Shown: positions 34,306 to 42,519 of the stretch, in pieces | How positions within the stretch are numbered: the first letter of the stretch is position 1 | Layout: each line of letters begins with the position of its first letter | Assembly (NCBI RefSeq): GCF_001668725.1 | Contig: NZ_LZKL01000085.1 | Coordinates: 1 to 64,000 of the forward strand | Origin: Mycobacterium sp. E787 | GTDB taxonomy: Bacteria > Actinomycetota > Actinomycetes > Mycobacteriales > Mycobacteriaceae | Direction of reading: 5' to 3' | DNA: 64,000 nt | Notes under the pieces: generated by a model | Database searches by the model: none | What the model was told of the DNA's origin: nothing | The model's input: the letters and a program-made list of their open reading frames with translations, nothing else | Program-made: the position numbers and the translations under genes

Positions 34306-34842
34306 ATGCTTGCAGCGTTCGGATTCGAAGCCCTCGGTCTGGTCGTCGGCGACATGTACTTCGTCGACCCTCGCCCGCTCGAAGGTCAGGAAACCCCGGA
34401 ACGGGGAGTCAGGCTGGAACTTCGGCTGATCGAGCGGGACGAGCCCCGTGGCTCCATCTACGCCGGCGTCCCGATCACCTTCGCGCGCCCGGTGTGGCGG
34501 GTGGACCTGTTCGGGTCCACCGAGAGCCCGCCCGGGACGCTGGACCGGGCCCATCACCATCCCCGTTTCGACGGGTGGGAGCCCGGGCGCCGGCATTTCG
34601 TCCCCGAGCTGTCCGCCGACCCGGTGGGCTGGCTGGCCGGCCAGCTGGCCGACCCGGCCGCCGTGCTGGCCCGGGCGGGCGTCGACCCCGACGAGGTTCC
34701 CGAAGCCGATAAGGCCGGGCTCGCAGCGGCGGCCCCGGAGATCGTCGCCGCGGTGAAGCGCATGCTCGACGGCGTGCGGGTCGGCGAGTTAGCCCCGTCG
34801 CCACCCGAGCCGGTCGCCGCGGCCCGCACCGGCTGGCTCTGA
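34306..34842 (+). CDS. Uncharacterised 178-residue protein
   Basis: It starts at ATG 34306 with a GAGGAGAGG ribosome site. It begins MLAAFGFEALGLVVGDMYFVDPRP, continues with a soluble mixed region (RLELRLIERDEPRGSIYAGVP, VWRVDLFGSTE) and ends in alanine-rich helices. It contains HHHPRFDGWEPGRRHF, a histidine cluster that could bind metal, but no family is recognised. It is the first gene of the block that separates desA3 from rsgA. It converges on the diadenylate-cyclase-like gene, 27 nt away. Confidence 0.65.
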   Translation: MLAAFGFEALGLVVGDMYFVDPRPLEGQETPERGVRLELRLIERDEPRGSIYAGVPITFARPVWRVDLFGSTESPPGTLDRAHHHPRFDGWEPGRRHFVPELSADPVGWLAGQLADPAAVLARAGVDPDEVPEADKAGLAAAAPEIVAAVKRMLDGVRVGELAPSPPEPVAAARTGWL

Positions 34843-34869: not shown

Positions 34870-36666
34870 TTAGTCGATGAGGTACTCCTCGGTCATTTCC
34901 GGGTCGGCGCGGAGAGGGTGCTCGAAAGTGCGAACGTTGGCGCCGTCTGCCATGCGGCGCTCCCAGTGGTCGTCCATCAGGGCGTTGACCTCCGAGATCT
35001 GATCCGGCGAGAGGTAGAACGCCTTGGCCTCGATCCGCCGGTACGCCTTGTAGAACTCTTCGGGGTGGACCGGATCGATGGCCGCCGCTTCCCGCAGCGC
35101 GGCGAGCAGGGCATCCCGCTCGCTGCGACGCATCCTGGGCCGCAGGTCCGGTAAGAGGTTGATCATGCCGTCCTCCGACACCAGCAGGATCACGGTCGGC
35201 ATCCGCGCGTCTCGGGCATGAGCGAGGTACTTCACCGCGGAGTTGTACCGCGCGCCGCGGGAACGGTCACCCTCGCTGGTGGCGGTGCCGTCCAGGATGA
35301 CCCCGATCGCGTGGCAATACCCGGACGGGTCGACGAGCACAGCGCCATCGATGCCGGTGACTTTTCCGACGAATTCCTGGTCCAGCCTTGTCGGTTCGAT
35401 GGTCAGCGCCTGGCTTTCCAGCCGGGCTGCCTCTTCGGCGGCGCGTTCGGAGATGACAAGCATGGTTCCATGTGCGGCCCTGCTCGCCGCAGTGGCGAGG
35501 TCCCACAAAGCGCCGCCGTCGTATTGCTGGAACACCCGGCCGCAGAGGTCGTCGAGCCGTTCGGGGGGCAGTGGCTGGTCGGGCAGCCGCGCGGCTCCGA
35601 ACTGCACGGTCACCAGCCGGACGCCGGCGTGGCTCAACTCCCAGATGCCGTCGCCGAGAACGACGACCTGGAAAACCGACTCGGACGTTTCGGGATAATC
35701 CGGCCGCTGCCGTCCGAATCCGTAAACCTCGTTGCCGTCGGTGAGCAGCGACTCGCCGTGGAAGCTGCTGGTCTCCAACAGCTTTCGGAGTGTTCGGGTC
35801 TCGCTGACGGGGACCGGGGAGCGAAGCGTCACCGAGCGGTCGATGTGCTCCGAGCGCGCGTCGGCGAGTAGCAGCGATCCGACGCCCACCCGCGTTTCGT
35901 ACCGTGTTGTCGACACCCGGTTCAGCCCATCGAACAAGTCGGTCCAGGTGTCGTTGCCGGCCAACAAGGTGGCCGAACGGGTCAGGGCCCTGCCCGCCGC
36001 CCTCGCCACATCCGCGGGGTCGTGGCCGATGCTCAGCCCCGAGCCGGCGTGCGGTTCGTACAGTGCCCGCCTGCTCAGGCGAAGGATCTCGTCAACCGCG
36101 CCATGGACGAGCGATGGCGTGACGGGGTGGCCGCCCGCCGTCGTGGTTAGCAGGTGCGGGGTGCTGTGGTGCACTCGGTCGGGCAGTCCGATCGCCGCGA
36201 ACACGAGGTGCTGCTCCACGGGTGCCGGCAGTCCTACGACCAACCGCAGACCCGGTCGAAGCTTCCCCTCGAGCACCTCACCGATGGCCGTGGTGTAGGC
36301 GCGGTGGCGCAGTTCCTGGTGCCGCTTCTCCCGCACCCCCGGCGAGCTGAATTCGGTTGTGGTTTCGCCGTTTTGGCGGTAGAGCTCGGCGGCCCGGTCA
36401 AACAGGCCGTCAAAGTCGGCCGGGACGATCAGCCCGTCCTCGGGCTCCACGCACAACGGATGGCCCGACCCCTTCTTCCTCGGCAGCCCGATCAGGAAGA
36501 CCGTCGGCTCGGCGGATACGCCGAGCGCCTCCAGCGAACTGCGGAGCGCGATCTCCACAGAACCCCGGAATGGGCTCTGGAAGCCCCACATGAACCGATC
36601 GATGGCATCTGGCACCCCATAATGGTGCCTACATCCGTCCCCGTCGGTCCAGGGCAAAATTCGCAC
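34870..36666 (-). CDS. Putative sensor with C-terminal DisA-type diadenylate cyclase domain
   Basis: A 598-residue protein. Residues about 385-510 match the DisA_N (DAC) fold: GTMLVISERAAEEAARLESQ (400-419), the DGA motif (440-442) and a second motif RGARYNSA (470-477) where DisA has GTRHRAA. TVILLVSEDGMINLLPDLRP (491-510) is equivalent to the VSEETG region. The first 380 residues resemble no family I can name and may be a sensor domain. The protein probably makes c-di-AMP or a related dinucleotide. The H-to-Y and R-to-N changes in motif two could alter substrate. It would be additional to housekeeping DisA, encoded elsewhere. Confidence 0.7.
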   Translation of the reverse strand: MRILPWTDGDGCRHHYGVPDAIDRFMWGFQSPFRGSVEIALRSSLEALGVSAEPTVFLIGLPRKKGSGHPLCVEPEDGLIVPADFDGLFDRAAELYRQNGETTTEFSSPGVREKRHQELRHRAYTTAIGEVLEGKLRPGLRLVVGLPAPVEQHLVFAAIGLPDRVHHSTPHLLTTTAGGHPVTPSLVHGAVDEILRLSRRALYEPHAGSGLSIGHDPADVARAAGRALTRSATLLAGNDTWTDLFDGLNRVSTTRYETRVGVGSLLLADARSEHIDRSVTLRSPVPVSETRTLRKLLETSSFHGESLLTDGNEVYGFGRQRPDYPETSESVFQVVVLGDGIWELSHAGVRLVTVQFGAARLPDQPLPPERLDDLCGRVFQQYDGGALWDLATAASRAAHGTMLVISERAAEEAARLESQALTIEPTRLDQEFVGKVTGIDGAVLVDPSGYCHAIGVILDGTATSEGDRSRGARYNSAVKYLAHARDARMPTVILLVSEDGMINLLPDLRPRMRRSERDALLAALREAAAIDPVHPEEFYKAYRRIEAKAFYLSPDQISEVNALMDDHWERRMADGANVRTFEHPLRADPEMTEEYLID

Positions 36667-36784: not shown

Positions 36785-38023
36785 TCACTTCGACTCGGTT
36801 CGCCGCGCGAATTGCGGGGCGTGCTCGGGGAGCGGGCCGACGCCGACCGCGTAGGCGGGGATCACCGCCAGCGAGGGGATCCAGCCGAAAAGCCTTGCGG
36901 CGGCGTTGGTGATCAGGGGCGGCGGTGGCTTGATCTCGCCACGCAGGACGACCGGGATGAGGACTCGCCCTGCGGCCTGTTGCACCGCCTGGGTGATTGC
37001 CGCGGGGAGCTTCCGGCGCCGCTGGACCGCGGCCAGGTTCCGAGTGGTGAGCCGGTGGGCCAGCAGCGGGTCGGCCAGGATCCGTGCGGCGGCCACTGCG
37101 TCGGCGATCGCGAGGTTGATCCCGACCCCGCCGGCCGGGGACATGGCGTGGGCGGCGTCCCCGATGCACAACAGTCCCTTCCTGTACCAACGACGGAGCC
37201 GGTTCACCCGCACGTCGAGAACTTTGACGTCGTCCCACGATCTGAGGTTCTGCACCGAGGCCTCGGGCACCAATTCAGCTACCTGAGATCGGAAAGTGTC
37301 GAACCCGCGGGAGTGCAATTGTTGCTCACCCCCTTTGGGGAGGAAGCATCCGGCCTGGAAGTACCCTTCGCGCGGGATCAGCACCAAAGTCAGGCTGGGC
37401 GAAGTGCGCGGCGTCAGTTGAAATTTCACTTCGGTCTTGCGGTCGAGTCGAAACCACCCGACGTCGAACGGCACCGGGTACTCGCGCGCGGTCAATCCGG
37501 CCTCGCGGCGCACGGTCGACGTGCGGCCGTCGCAGCCCACGGTGAGGTCGGCGCGCAACTCTGCGGGCCCGTCGGGCCCGAGGTAGCGCACCCCGGTGAT
37601 GGCGTCGCCGTCGCGCAGCAACCCGGTGACCTCGGTTTGCATCCGCAACGTGAACGTGGGTTCGTCCTTGCCCGCCTCGGCGAGCAGATCGAGGAAATCC
37701 CATTGCGGCACCAGCGCGATATAGCGATGGGGCAGGCGCAGGCGGCGGAAGTCGACCAAAGTGACCTGCCGTCCGTTGATGTCGAATTCGGCCTTCTCGA
37801 ACTTGCTGTGCGGCAGGGCGTCGAAGCGGTGAAACAACCCGAGTTCGTCGAGCAAGCGCAGGGTGACCGGGTGCACCGTGTCACCGCGAAAGTCGCGGAG
37901 GAAGTCGGGGTGCTTCTCGAACACGGTGACCTCGACGCCGGCTCGGGCCAGCAGCAGCCCGAGGATCATTCCGGCGGGACCACCTCCGGCGATCGCGCAG
38001 GTGGTGGATTTCGGTTCGGTCAT
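36785..38023 (-). CDS. FAD-dependent aromatic monooxygenase
   Basis: The 412-residue class A flavoprotein hydroxylase has three diagnostic motifs. These are the N-terminal GxGxxG (CAIAGGGPAGMILGLLLARAG), the central DG motif (LTVGCDGRTSTVRREAGL) and the C-terminal GD motif (LLCIGDAAHAMSPAGGVGINLAI). It uses NAD(P)H and O2 to hydroxylate or epoxidise an unknown organic substrate. It ends 118 nt before the diadenylate-cyclase-like gene on the same strand, and lies downstream of the F420-type gene, also on the minus strand. Nothing in the sequence ties it functionally to either neighbour. Confidence 0.88.
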   Translation of the reverse strand: MTEPKSTTCAIAGGGPAGMILGLLLARAGVEVTVFEKHPDFLRDFRGDTVHPVTLRLLDELGLFHRFDALPHSKFEKAEFDINGRQVTLVDFRRLRLPHRYIALVPQWDFLDLLAEAGKDEPTFTLRMQTEVTGLLRDGDAITGVRYLGPDGPAELRADLTVGCDGRTSTVRREAGLTAREYPVPFDVGWFRLDRKTEVKFQLTPRTSPSLTLVLIPREGYFQAGCFLPKGGEQQLHSRGFDTFRSQVAELVPEASVQNLRSWDDVKVLDVRVNRLRRWYRKGLLCIGDAAHAMSPAGGVGINLAIADAVAAARILADPLLAHRLTTRNLAAVQRRRKLPAAITQAVQQAAGRVLIPVVLRGEIKPPPPLITNAAARLFGWIPSLAVIPAYAVGVGPLPEHAPQFARRTESK

Positions 38024-38144
38024 TGTGTTCTTCGCTTCCGACGGGCTTCGACAGGGCGGATCGCGTCGCGTCGTATCACATCACGGCTGGTGATGTCCCT
38101 GCTACCACCACAGGTCTCAGCCGCATCGCCCGGATGGACGGCGG

Positions 38145-38645
38145 CTACCCTGAATGCTCCGCAGAGAAGACGTCGATCGCCCGCACGGGCGCCAACATCA
38201 CCAGCGGGATCTGCCGACTCGTCGACCTCTGATAGGCGAGGTACGGCGGGTAGAGGTGAGTCATGTACGCCCACACCTCGTGCCGTTCCTCGCCTTCGGG
38301 CTCGCGCCAGGTCGCCTCGAATGCCTGGGTGGCGATCTGAACGCCGATCGTGTTGCTCTGTAAGACATTCAAGTACCACTCCGGGTGCGCGTCGGCGCCA
38401 CCCTTGGATGCGACGATCACGATCTCGCCGCCGACGTTGCCGTAGATCAGCGGTCTGACATAGCTCTTACCCGATTTGCGCCCGACAACCTCGATCAAGC
38501 AGTGCGTGGTCAGCTTGCGGCCCCCGAGCGCGCTCAGGTCCATGATGTGGCCTCGCGTGCCGCCGGAGGTCAGGTAGCTCTCGAGGTGCTCGCTGATCCA
38601 GTCACTGCGCTCCGCTCGGATCGCGGCCGCGTCGGCGTCGCTCAT
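38145..38645 (-). CDS. Ddn-like deazaflavin (F420)-dependent nitroreductase family protein
   Basis: The 166-residue split-barrel protein belongs to the actinobacterial Ddn/DUF385 family. Signature stretches are HCLIEVVGRKSGKSYVRPLIYG and VIVASKGGADAHPEWYLNV, which line the F420 pocket. A C-terminal PPYLAYQRSTSRQIPLVML segment is also typical. Family members reduce quinones or nitro-compounds with F420H2; the substrate here is unknown. ATG 38645 is preceded on the coding strand by GGAGGAGT. It diverges from the DUF732 gene across a 280-bp spacer in which no gene is seen. Confidence 0.88.
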   Translation of the reverse strand: MSDADAAAIRAERSDWISEHLESYLTSGGTRGHIMDLSALGGRKLTTHCLIEVVGRKSGKSYVRPLIYGNVGGEIVIVASKGGADAHPEWYLNVLQSNTIGVQIATQAFEATWREPEGEERHEVWAYMTHLYPPYLAYQRSTSRQIPLVMLAPVRAIDVFSAEHSG

Positions 38646-38925
38646 GGATGACTCCTCCCGTCAACGAGGCGAGGCCGCACGACCGCGCCTCCGTCCGCTG
38701 ATTTTGCCAGGCTGACCATGCAACCATGTGCCGGCACGCGGCCGCGCAAGGACGTAGCCCGTGCCATAAGGGCTGGCCGATGCCGCTGGCATCGCCGTCA
38801 CCGTTGGTGTTGGTCGGATCCGTGCCGTTTCGATTTGCCAGCCGGCAGGATCCAGCTAATCTAGCTGCAGCCGCGTGAGCGTCAGGGGGCTTGGAAATCC
38901 GTAGTCCACACCGAGGAGTCAACGA

Positions 38926-39258
38926 ATGAAGAAGCCCGCTCGACTGACCGGCCCGCTGGCCGCCGTCCTGGGTGGTGTCGCCGTCGTCACGGCCCCGCTC
39001 GCGACTGCCGACTCGGCGGATGACGCTTACCTGTCGACGCTCAAGGACAAGGGCATCACCTGGCCGAGCGGCGCCGACCCGACGATGGTCCAGATCGGGC
39101 ACGCGGTGTGCACCGACTGGTCCAAAGGGATGACCTTCGAGCAAACGCTCGCCGACGCGAAGTCGGGGATGCCACAATTAGCCGACACCTCCCTCGCCAA
39201 GATCATGGGTGCGGCGACGGGGGTTTACTGCCCGCAGTACTCGAGCAAATTCGACTGA
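38926..39258 (+). CDS. DUF732 secreted protein
   Basis: The 110-residue protein has a cleavable Sec signal (KKPARL, then an Ala/Gly/Val-rich core, cleavage likely after ATA at residue 28). A short mature domain starts DSADDAYLSTLKDKGITWPSG. Two cysteines (AVCTDW and VYCPQY) probably form a disulfide. DUF732 proteins are small exported mycobacterial proteins of unknown role, present in many copies per genome. ATG 38926 follows CCGAGGAGT. Confidence 0.87.
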   Translation: MKKPARLTGPLAAVLGGVAVVTAPLATADSADDAYLSTLKDKGITWPSGADPTMVQIGHAVCTDWSKGMTFEQTLADAKSGMPQLADTSLAKIMGAATGVYCPQYSSKFD

Positions 39259-39293
39259 CGTTGCGCCGCAACAACGCGGATTGACGCGGCGAC

Positions 39294-40145
39294 TCAGCGC
39301 GCGGGACCGTTCGGCGCCGCGCAGAGCCGGTCCAATGCCGCCCGGCTCTCGTCGTCCGCTGCGCGGCAGATCATCAACCGCTGGTCCGTATCCTGCAGGG
39401 GCGTGAGCACTTCGAAGTGAATCGCGAGCGCGCCGACGTCAGGATGCCGCATCGCCTTGCGCCCGCGGCCATTGACCTTGACCTCGCGCTCTGACCACAA
39501 TCGCGCGAATTCGTCTTCGTGGGTGGTGAATTCGGTTATGAGGTCGGTCAAGGCCCGATCATCCGGATGGGCGGCCCAGGCGGCGCGCAGGTGGGCGACC
39601 CCCTCCCGCACGACACGGTCACGGTCGACGTAATACTCGCGGATCTCAGGATGCATCAGGCACAGCCACATCGCATTGCGCTGCGACGGCGGCAGGGTGT
39701 CGAAATCCACTAGCAGCCGTGCCATCTCGCCGTTCCAGGCCAGGATGTCGAAGCGATGGTTCATCAGCATGGCCGGCAGTGGCGACAGGTCGTCGACCAG
39801 CTGCGCCAGCGGGGGCGCCGCGGCGGTCGCCGGGCTGTGGGTGTTGCGCGGGCGCCGCCGGGCCAGGTCGAAGAGGTAGGCGCGTTCCTCGGCTCCCAGG
39901 CGCAACGCTCGGGCCAGCGCCTCGATCACGTCCGCGGAAGGCCGCAGCCCGCGGCCCTGTTCCAGCCGCACGATGTAGTCGATGCTCACCCCGGCCAGTT
40001 CGGCAACCTCTTCACGGCGCAGTCCCGGCGTCCGCCGGGACCGCCGCCGCAACGGCAGGCCGAAATCACGCGGGTCCAGCCGTTCCCGTCGGGCCCTAAG
40101 GAACGCGGCCATCTCCTGTGTCGTGTCCACGGTGCGGGTAGTCAC
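39294..40145 (-). CDS. XRE-family regulator with MmyB-like ligand domain
   Basis: The 283-residue protein has an N-terminal HTH_31/XRE domain (RTPGLRREEVAELAGVSIDYIVRLEQGRGLRPS, about residues 37-69). A C-terminal MmyB-like domain with a PAS-like fold follows (LPAMLMNHRFDILAWNGEMARLL). Such regulators commonly control a divergent oxidoreductase gene, sometimes in response to fatty acids. Here the aldo/keto reductase gene begins 116 nt away on the opposite strand, so it is the likely target. ATG 40145 is the only sensible start. Confidence 0.9.
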   Translation of the reverse strand: MTTRTVDTTQEMAAFLRARRERLDPRDFGLPLRRRSRRTPGLRREEVAELAGVSIDYIVRLEQGRGLRPSADVIEALARALRLGAEERAYLFDLARRRPRNTHSPATAAAPPLAQLVDDLSPLPAMLMNHRFDILAWNGEMARLLVDFDTLPPSQRNAMWLCLMHPEIREYYVDRDRVVREGVAHLRAAWAAHPDDRALTDLITEFTTHEDEFARLWSEREVKVNGRGRKAMRHPDVGALAIHFEVLTPLQDTDQRLMICRAADDESRAALDRLCAAPNGPAR

Positions 40146-40261
40146 GTGCGGTCCAACGGCCGGGGTGGGACTCCTGTTCCCAGGAACTTCTTTCCCTTAC
40201 CCCCTGCCGGTTGCGGTGACAGCGTCGTTGTCGAAAGCGATCACGAGCATGGGAGGACACG

Positions 40262-41326
40262 ATGTCGCTCACCCTGGACACCTATCGGCTGCTGGGCCGC
40301 TCCGGACTCCGGGTGTCACCGCTGGCGTTGGGGGCCGCGACCTTTGGCACCGAGTGGGGCTGGGGCGCCGAGCAGGACGAGGCGCGGAAGCTTTTCGAAG
40401 TCTATGTCGAGCGCGGTGGCAACTTCATCGACACCGCCAACACCTACACGGATGGCAGCTCCGAGCGTCTGCTGGGCGAATTTGTCGCACATAACCGCGA
40501 AAGCCTGGTGCTGGCAACGAAGTACAGTACGCTACGACGGCCCCGCGATCCGAATTCCGGCGGCGCTCATCGTAAGAGCCTGTTCGCTTCGGTGGAAGCC
40601 AGCCTGCGACAGCTGAATACGGACTACATCGATCTGCTTTATCTGCATGTGTGGGACTTCACAACACCGGCCGAGGAGATCCTGCGCGGCATGGACGATC
40701 TGGTCCGGCAGGGCAAGGTCTTGTACGTGGCGATCTCCAACGCTCCGGCCTGGCAGGTTTCCCGCATGCAGACGATCGCCGATCTGCGCGGCTGGTCCCC
40801 GCTGGTCGCGCTGCAGATCGAATACAACCTGATCGAGCGGACCGGCGAGCGAGACTTGATTCCCATGGCACGCGAGATGGGGTTGGGTGTCGTTCCGTAT
40901 TCGCCGCTGGCCGGTGGGGTGCTCAGCGGCAAGTACAGCCTCGACGACCTGGCCGCGGCCGGCGTCGCTTCCGGCGACGGCACCCGGAAGAGCTTCAACC
41001 TCGCGCTGGGCACGCTGACGGAGCGCAACCTTGCCGTCGCTGACGTCGTCAAGGAGGTCGCGACCGAGCTGGGTCGCCCCCCAGCCCAGGTCGCGCTGGC
41101 CTGGACCCTGCAGAACCCGGGCGTGACGGCGCCGATCATCGGTGCCCGCACCGCCGCGCAGCTCGAGGACAACCTCGGCGCCCTGGAAGTGGATTTCGAC
41201 GCCGCCCAACTGGCGCGCCTCGACGAGGCCAGCGCGATCGCACCGGGTTTTCCGCACGACATACTCGCCAGCGACCACCTCCGCACGGTGACCGCCGGCG
41301 AGCTGAAGATCGAAACCCGCCGCTGA
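40262..41326 (+). CDS. Aldo/keto reductase
   Basis: A 354-residue NADPH-dependent TIM-barrel reductase. The catalytic tetrad is visible as FIDTANTYTDGSSERLLGEF (Asp and Tyr), LVLATKYST (Lys) and DLLYLHVWD (His). The C-terminal cofactor motif is VTAPIIGARTAAQLEDNLGAL. It belongs to the YajO/Tas-like AKRs that reduce aldehydes or ketones; the physiological substrate is unknown. It is divergent from the XRE regulator and convergent with the thiolase, 11 nt from its stop. ATG 40262 has a GGGAGGACACG site. Confidence 0.92.
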   Translation: MSLTLDTYRLLGRSGLRVSPLALGAATFGTEWGWGAEQDEARKLFEVYVERGGNFIDTANTYTDGSSERLLGEFVAHNRESLVLATKYSTLRRPRDPNSGGAHRKSLFASVEASLRQLNTDYIDLLYLHVWDFTTPAEEILRGMDDLVRQGKVLYVAISNAPAWQVSRMQTIADLRGWSPLVALQIEYNLIERTGERDLIPMAREMGLGVVPYSPLAGGVLSGKYSLDDLAAAGVASGDGTRKSFNLALGTLTERNLAVADVVKEVATELGRPPAQVALAWTLQNPGVTAPIIGARTAAQLEDNLGALEVDFDAAQLARLDEASAIAPGFPHDILASDHLRTVTAGELKIETRR

Positions 41327-41337
41327 GGCCGGGTTTC

Positions 41338-42519
<1,182 letters not shown>

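Follow-up and report, generated by a model that had tools for sequence, protein, structure and literature searches.

The window, i.e., the whole stretch of 64,000 nucleotides analysed here, encodes on its minus strand a protein with two probable sensor domains and a C-terminal domain predicted to have the DisA-type diadenylate cyclase (DAC) fold. The gene is an orphan, which is unusual in comparison with its CBASS-linked relatives. According to the best explanation, in which we place slightly better than even confidence, it provides an inducible second source of cyclic dinucleotide that is probably related to defence. The sensors DACNG and DACNH would gate the C-terminal DisA-type cyclase, which, once an infection- or stress-derived cue is sensed, would combine two ATP into a cyclic dinucleotide, most likely c-di-AMP, and would thereby raise the level of c-di-AMP without DisA. 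In relatives, the DAC gene appears as a part of CBASS-type anti-phage operons (CD-NTase, phospholipase or Cap15 effector, DAC); the window copy would have been borrowed from such an anti-phage setting and acquired at a variable chromosomal site. Because it would work without CBASS partners, its signal would have to target either an effector whose gene lies elsewhere or the general c-di-AMP network. Mycobacteria are studied as organisms with a single DAC (DisA), and a second DAC of the defence type would open phage-induced c-di-AMP signalling to tests in a well-developed host.

The gene and its parts are as follows, with positions in the window and residues counted along the open reading frame (ORF).

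34870..36666, minus strand: DACNG-DACNH-DAC protein, DS2_3-type diadenylate cyclase (ORF of 598 codons; NCBIfam NF053872; AF2 model)
35983..36591, minus strand: DACNG, probable sensor domain, residues 26-228 (PF21752, 5e-42; recovered again by a six-frame search)
35626..35940, minus strand: DACNH, probable sensor domain, residues 243-347 (PF21750, 2.4e-22)
35137..35559, minus strand: predicted DisA-type DAC catalytic domain, approximately residues 370-510 (PDB fold matches, hhalign, and PF02457 matches in the family)
35341..35349, minus strand: DGA motif, residues 440-442 (D440 and G441 invariant in 71/71)
35236..35259, minus strand: RGARYNSA motif, residues 470-477, at the RHR position of DisA (R470, G471, and R473 invariant; N475 in 68/71)
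35155..35181, minus strand: VSEDGMINL motif, residues 496-504 (S497 and D499 invariant in 71/71)
34873..35136, minus strand: C-terminal helical extension, residues 511-598 (AF2 helices 514-529, 535-547, and 554-573)

The ORF at 34870-36666 proposed in an earlier note made from the sequence alone is confirmed (minus strand, 598 codons), and the positions given there for the DGA, RGARYNSA, and VSEDGMINL motifs are exact. The ORF represents a real gene, since it can be aligned along its length with 70 relatives, full-length or nearly so, from many phyla (71 rows together with the window protein), and D440, G441, R470, G471, R473, S497, and D499 are invariant in 71/71. Translation probably begins at the in-frame GTG at 36615 (codon 18), which gives a product of 581 aa, because AlphaFold pLDDT values <50 are confined to residues 1-19 of the 598-codon product and the N-termini of homologues begin at approximately residues 18-22.

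According to NCBIfam, the protein matches DS2_3_antiphage (NF053872) at profile positions 1-576 of 576 with 580.8 bits (2.6e-174). Judged by this profile, it is homologous to the family over the full length but is not an equivalog, as the curated line of 630 bits is not reached; this shortfall counts against the best explanation. PADLOC and PHROGs give no match for the protein. The first 380 residues, described in the earlier note as matching no family, contain DACNG and DACNH according to Pfam (5e-42 and 2e-22), and the fused architecture that seemed uncharacterised had already been named in NCBIfam. The profile search proposed there succeeded for the two sensor domains and failed for the cyclase: the window copy falls below the cut-off of the Pfam DAC model PF02457, which matches 46/71 rows of the family alignment, while DACNG and DACNH match 71/71. 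The DAC domain of this copy is thus, by its sequence, too divergent for that model, and the DACNG, DACNH, and DAC architecture is assigned by Pfam for the first two and by fold comparison for the third.

As for the fold, the full-length AlphaFold model has pLDDT of 91.1 and pTM of 0.86. In the comparison with PDB structures, which the earlier note had suggested, ranks 1-27 are all DACs, mostly with probability 1.00, and at rank 28 the probability falls to 0.06. The top match is M. tuberculosis DisA with c-di-AMP (9y4s, E 8e-5, probability 1.00). Sequence searches of the PDB with the protein or its profile retrieve no DAC, so that DACs are reached by fold comparison alone. The family profile aligns weakly with DisA of the same genome by hhalign (residues 370-488, probability 46%, E 2e-4). 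Motifs, profile comparison, and predicted fold agree with the DisA-type catalytic domain recognised from the sequence, and the model assigns the C-terminal domain to the DisA-type DAC fold. The full-length family match, both sensor domains, the predicted fold, and the intact invariant active site all count in favour of the best explanation. The C-terminal helical extension is missing in some relatives, including M. sphagni, whose protein stops after the DAC domain.

The N-terminal half (window:35569-36609, residues 20-366), folded without the DAC domain, reaches pLDDT of 94.4. With this whole 20-366 fold as the query, DACs take all of the first 11 ranks in the PDB, albeit as weak matches (E 0.013-0.27, probability up to 0.97), and on inspection of the model the order of strands and helices in residues 263-346 resembles that of residues 401-505 minus two helices. 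Hhalign of DACNH or DACNG against DAC does not support homology. It is distinctly unlikely, though suggested by the models, that DACNH represents a degenerate DAC-fold copy, packed on the cyclase as a built-in false dimer partner and keeping it off until a cue breaks the contact. If so, orphan copies would be self-contained switches injecting a cyclic dinucleotide, perhaps a non-standard one from the R-x-N site.

Regarding the active site, D440, G441, H452, D459, R470, G471, R473, S497, and D499 are invariant in 71/71 aligned proteins. The window protein keeps DGA, and the position of DisA's RHR reads R-Y-N. The earlier note took Y and N in this motif for a peculiarity of the gene, yet they are the family norm: position 474 is Y in 51 rows, F in 17, and L in 3, and position 475 is N in 68/71. 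Since these positions are so restricted, R-x-N in place of DisA's R-H-R is, across the aligned sequences, the rule of the DACNG-DACNH-DAC family. In M. tuberculosis DisA, replacement of RHR by AAA abolishes both ATP binding and c-di-AMP synthesis (PMC3328451). For this reason the question whether c-di-AMP or a different cyclic dinucleotide is made was fairly raised, the chemistry of the R-x-N family merits a separate test, and the substitution counts against the best explanation. The literature examined does not report the chemical product of this family.

A canonical DisA is encoded elsewhere in the same genome (G000:C42, PF02457 2e-26), which makes the window protein a second DAC-type protein, as had been proposed. 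With M. tuberculosis DisA (Rv3586, DacA) it shares the catalytic fold, according to the best PDB match (9y4s), as well as the DGA motif and the order of motifs. The DAC domain, however, is C-terminal in the window protein and N-terminal in DisA. DisA proper continues with a linker and a C-terminal HhH DNA-binding domain, whereas Pfam finds neither linker nor HhH in the window protein, which combines R-Y-N with DACNG and DACNH sensors where DisA has R-H-R.

The closest characterised setting is DS-2, a validated CBASS-type anti-phage system of a phospholipase, a cGAS-like CD-NTase, and a DAC (PMC13092281). Catalytic mutants of its DAC lose defence, and 15/30 DAC homologues lie beside CBASS (PMC13092281, DefensePredictor), both of which count in favour of the best explanation. 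We read the name DS2_3_antiphage as referring to the third DS-2 gene, because a Citrobacter plasmid carries patatin, nucleotidyltransferase, and DAC in this order; the trio also occurs on a Gluconobacter plasmid, where the DAC lies on the opposite strand. The third DS-2 gene and the window protein share the full-length DACNG-DACNH-DAC architecture and all active-site residues of the family, with approximately 30% identity to the Citrobacter protein. In contrast to DS-2, no phospholipase or CD-NTase adjoins the window gene. CBASS loci composed of CD-NTase, Cap15, and DAC (e.g., L011, L012, L018, and L024) carry a homologous DAC in the third operon position, 31-39% identical to the window protein, but the window locus has neither of the other two genes.

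The comparison covered 85 loci: the best 80 of 138 relatives confirmed in a scan across species genomes, four loci from plasmids, and the window itself; the fractions are biased because the sample was taken from the top of the ranking. Within this best-scoring sample, a CD-NTase is found nearby in 27/85 loci (in 25 of these within approximately 1.1 kb of the DAC), and a patatin or Cap15-like effector gene accompanies it in 26/27. Cap15 identity is confirmed by Pfam in two loci and by whole-genome search in five. Together with the plasmid trios, these counts argue for the best explanation, and the suspected link to conflict systems is supported. The CBASS label clusters strongly on the tree (6 changes versus a mean of 23 in shuffles). 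The window protein pairs solely with the M. sphagni protein (approximately 58% identical, support 100), and this pair lies apart from the CBASS-linked clades.

The neighbours of the DAC gene, according to Pfam, are a desaturase, a ferredoxin reductase, a conserved 178-aa protein, a FAD oxidoreductase, an F420-dependent reductase, an HTH regulator, an aldo-keto reductase, and a thiolase. Among the ten neighbouring genes no defence partner is detected by Pfam, PADLOC, or NCBIfam, and none encodes a phospholipase or Cap15 effector. The whole-genome search finds no Cap15 (S-2TMbeta) in the same genome. The SMODS Pfam model detects no CD-NTase in the locus or genome, but it was dropped as too insensitive because it missed the enzyme of L011. 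A 22-sequence profile, used instead, finds no DS-2-type CD-NTase in the genome, with two positive controls at 1e-111 or better. The same profile finds none in 32 other genomes whose DAC is unlinked to a DS-2-type CD-NTase, save one weak unlinked match. Such members of the DS-2 family, which lack the partners, prompt the question what role a DAC plays without a CD-NTase.

The surroundings of the gene comprise the following features.

34306..34842, plus strand: conserved 178-aa flanking gene, outside the system, bounding the variable site on one side (84-91% identity in the majority of ten relatives, order kept)
36785..41326, no strand assigned: rest of the variable block, with FAD oxidoreductase, F420-dependent reductase, HTH regulator, and aldo-keto reductase (Pfam; relatives carry other genes)
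41338..42519, minus strand: thiolase, likewise conserved and bounding the variable site on the other side (88-90% identical, in order, in four or more relatives)

Where relatives lack the DAC gene, the 178-aa gene and the thiolase are still found in the same order, separated by variable genes, so the accessory block interrupting a conserved order had been read correctly. The genes at 36785..41326 are linked to the DAC by adjacency only. The site as a whole (window:34842-41338) differs in gene content in every relative examined. An intact DAC gene is present in 2/397 sampled genomes of the genus (this one and M. sphagni), with short relics in 2 more; in the phylum, the family occurs in 3/397 genomes, counting this one, and it is also found on plasmids. 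The gene is rare and was laterally acquired at a variable chromosomal site. Phage origin was rejected, as phages, IMG/VR, and PHROGs give no match and no viral structure matches under E 0.001; tRNA-linked insertion was rejected as well, since the window contains no tRNA.

The closest relative, from Mycolicibacterium sphagni (L085:2209-6429), is 58% identical and has no counterpart of the C-terminal 90 residues. Its gene lies directly downstream of a Multi_ubiq, ThiF/DUF6791, and DUF6527 operon, a bacterial ubiquitin-like conjugation set, so the two mycobacterial copies stand in different settings. This neighbourhood, the rarity, the variable site, the absence of partners beside the gene, and the absence of Cap15 and of a DS-2-type CD-NTase from the genome count in favour of the best explanation. 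The relics correspond to residues 545-598 (L094, G467:C26:24376-24537) and residues 467-517 (L093, G018:C9:17897-18040).

These relics, and a genome in which neither Cap15 nor a DS-2-type CD-NTase is found, are what could be expected if the window gene were itself a non-functional leftover of a CBASS operon, stranded and decaying. We regard this as very improbable: the ORF is full length, every invariant residue is kept, and the M. sphagni protein is likewise partnerless with all motifs retained, which means that the orphan state has outlasted considerable divergence.

The chief rival to the best explanation is a c-di-AMP synthase controlled by stress or a metabolite, with no role in defence, that feeds a housekeeping network (osmolyte, DNA-damage, or envelope control); clades outside CBASS would then consist of ordinary signalling enzymes. 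It owes this rank to the partnerless clades, which are large and in part apparently inherited vertically. CD-NTase, patatin, and Cap15 are all absent from 54/85 loci of the best-scoring sample, and Propionibacteriaceae and Pedobacter clades retain the gene in several species, with a conserved gene order in the case of Pedobacter. A defence role of orphan members is weakened by these figures, as several such clades look vertically inherited, and the ten neighbours in the window, free of defence genes, agree with the rival. The patchy presence (2/397, relics in 2), variable site, and plasmid carriage, however, fit accessory defence better, as does the position of the M. sphagni copy beside an unrelated accessory conjugation operon. 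On balance, we consider a synthase without any defence role unlikely, although far from negligible. A conserved partner gene was sought for the non-CBASS class, and lineage-specific synteny alone was found. The Pedobacter loci (L060, L065, L068, L072, L073, L077, L084, and L086) carry DACNG-DACNH-DAC without CBASS in a conserved chromosomal order, as if vertically inherited, and possibly form a non-defence branch of the family.

Little credence is given to a guard enzyme of the Panoptes kind, whose steady product would restrain a membrane effector until a phage protein soaking up cyclic dinucleotides frees it. In Panoptes, a synthase restrains a Cap15-like effector that phage sponges release, and the effector OptE, homologous to Cap15, is kept inactive by 2',3'-c-di-AMP (PMC12657218). 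The pairing of mCpol OptS with S-2TMbeta OptE resembles L042 and L054, where the DAC forms a direct pair with a Cap15-like gene. The Panoptes synthase, however, has the mCpol fold, unrelated to the DAC fold predicted for the window protein, and neither the window locus nor the genome has a Cap15 effector. Moreover, the dead DAC in DS-2 loses defence (PMC13092281), whereas restraint predicts toxicity. As for the two loci themselves, L042:9980-12359 (Amycolatopsis nivea) and L054:9285-11728 (Methylomonas methanica) each contain the DAC and the Cap15-like gene as a tight pair with no linked CD-NTase. By analogy, they are possibly a Panoptes-like arrangement in which a DAC replaces mCpol; an unlinked SMODS gene is present in each of the two genomes.
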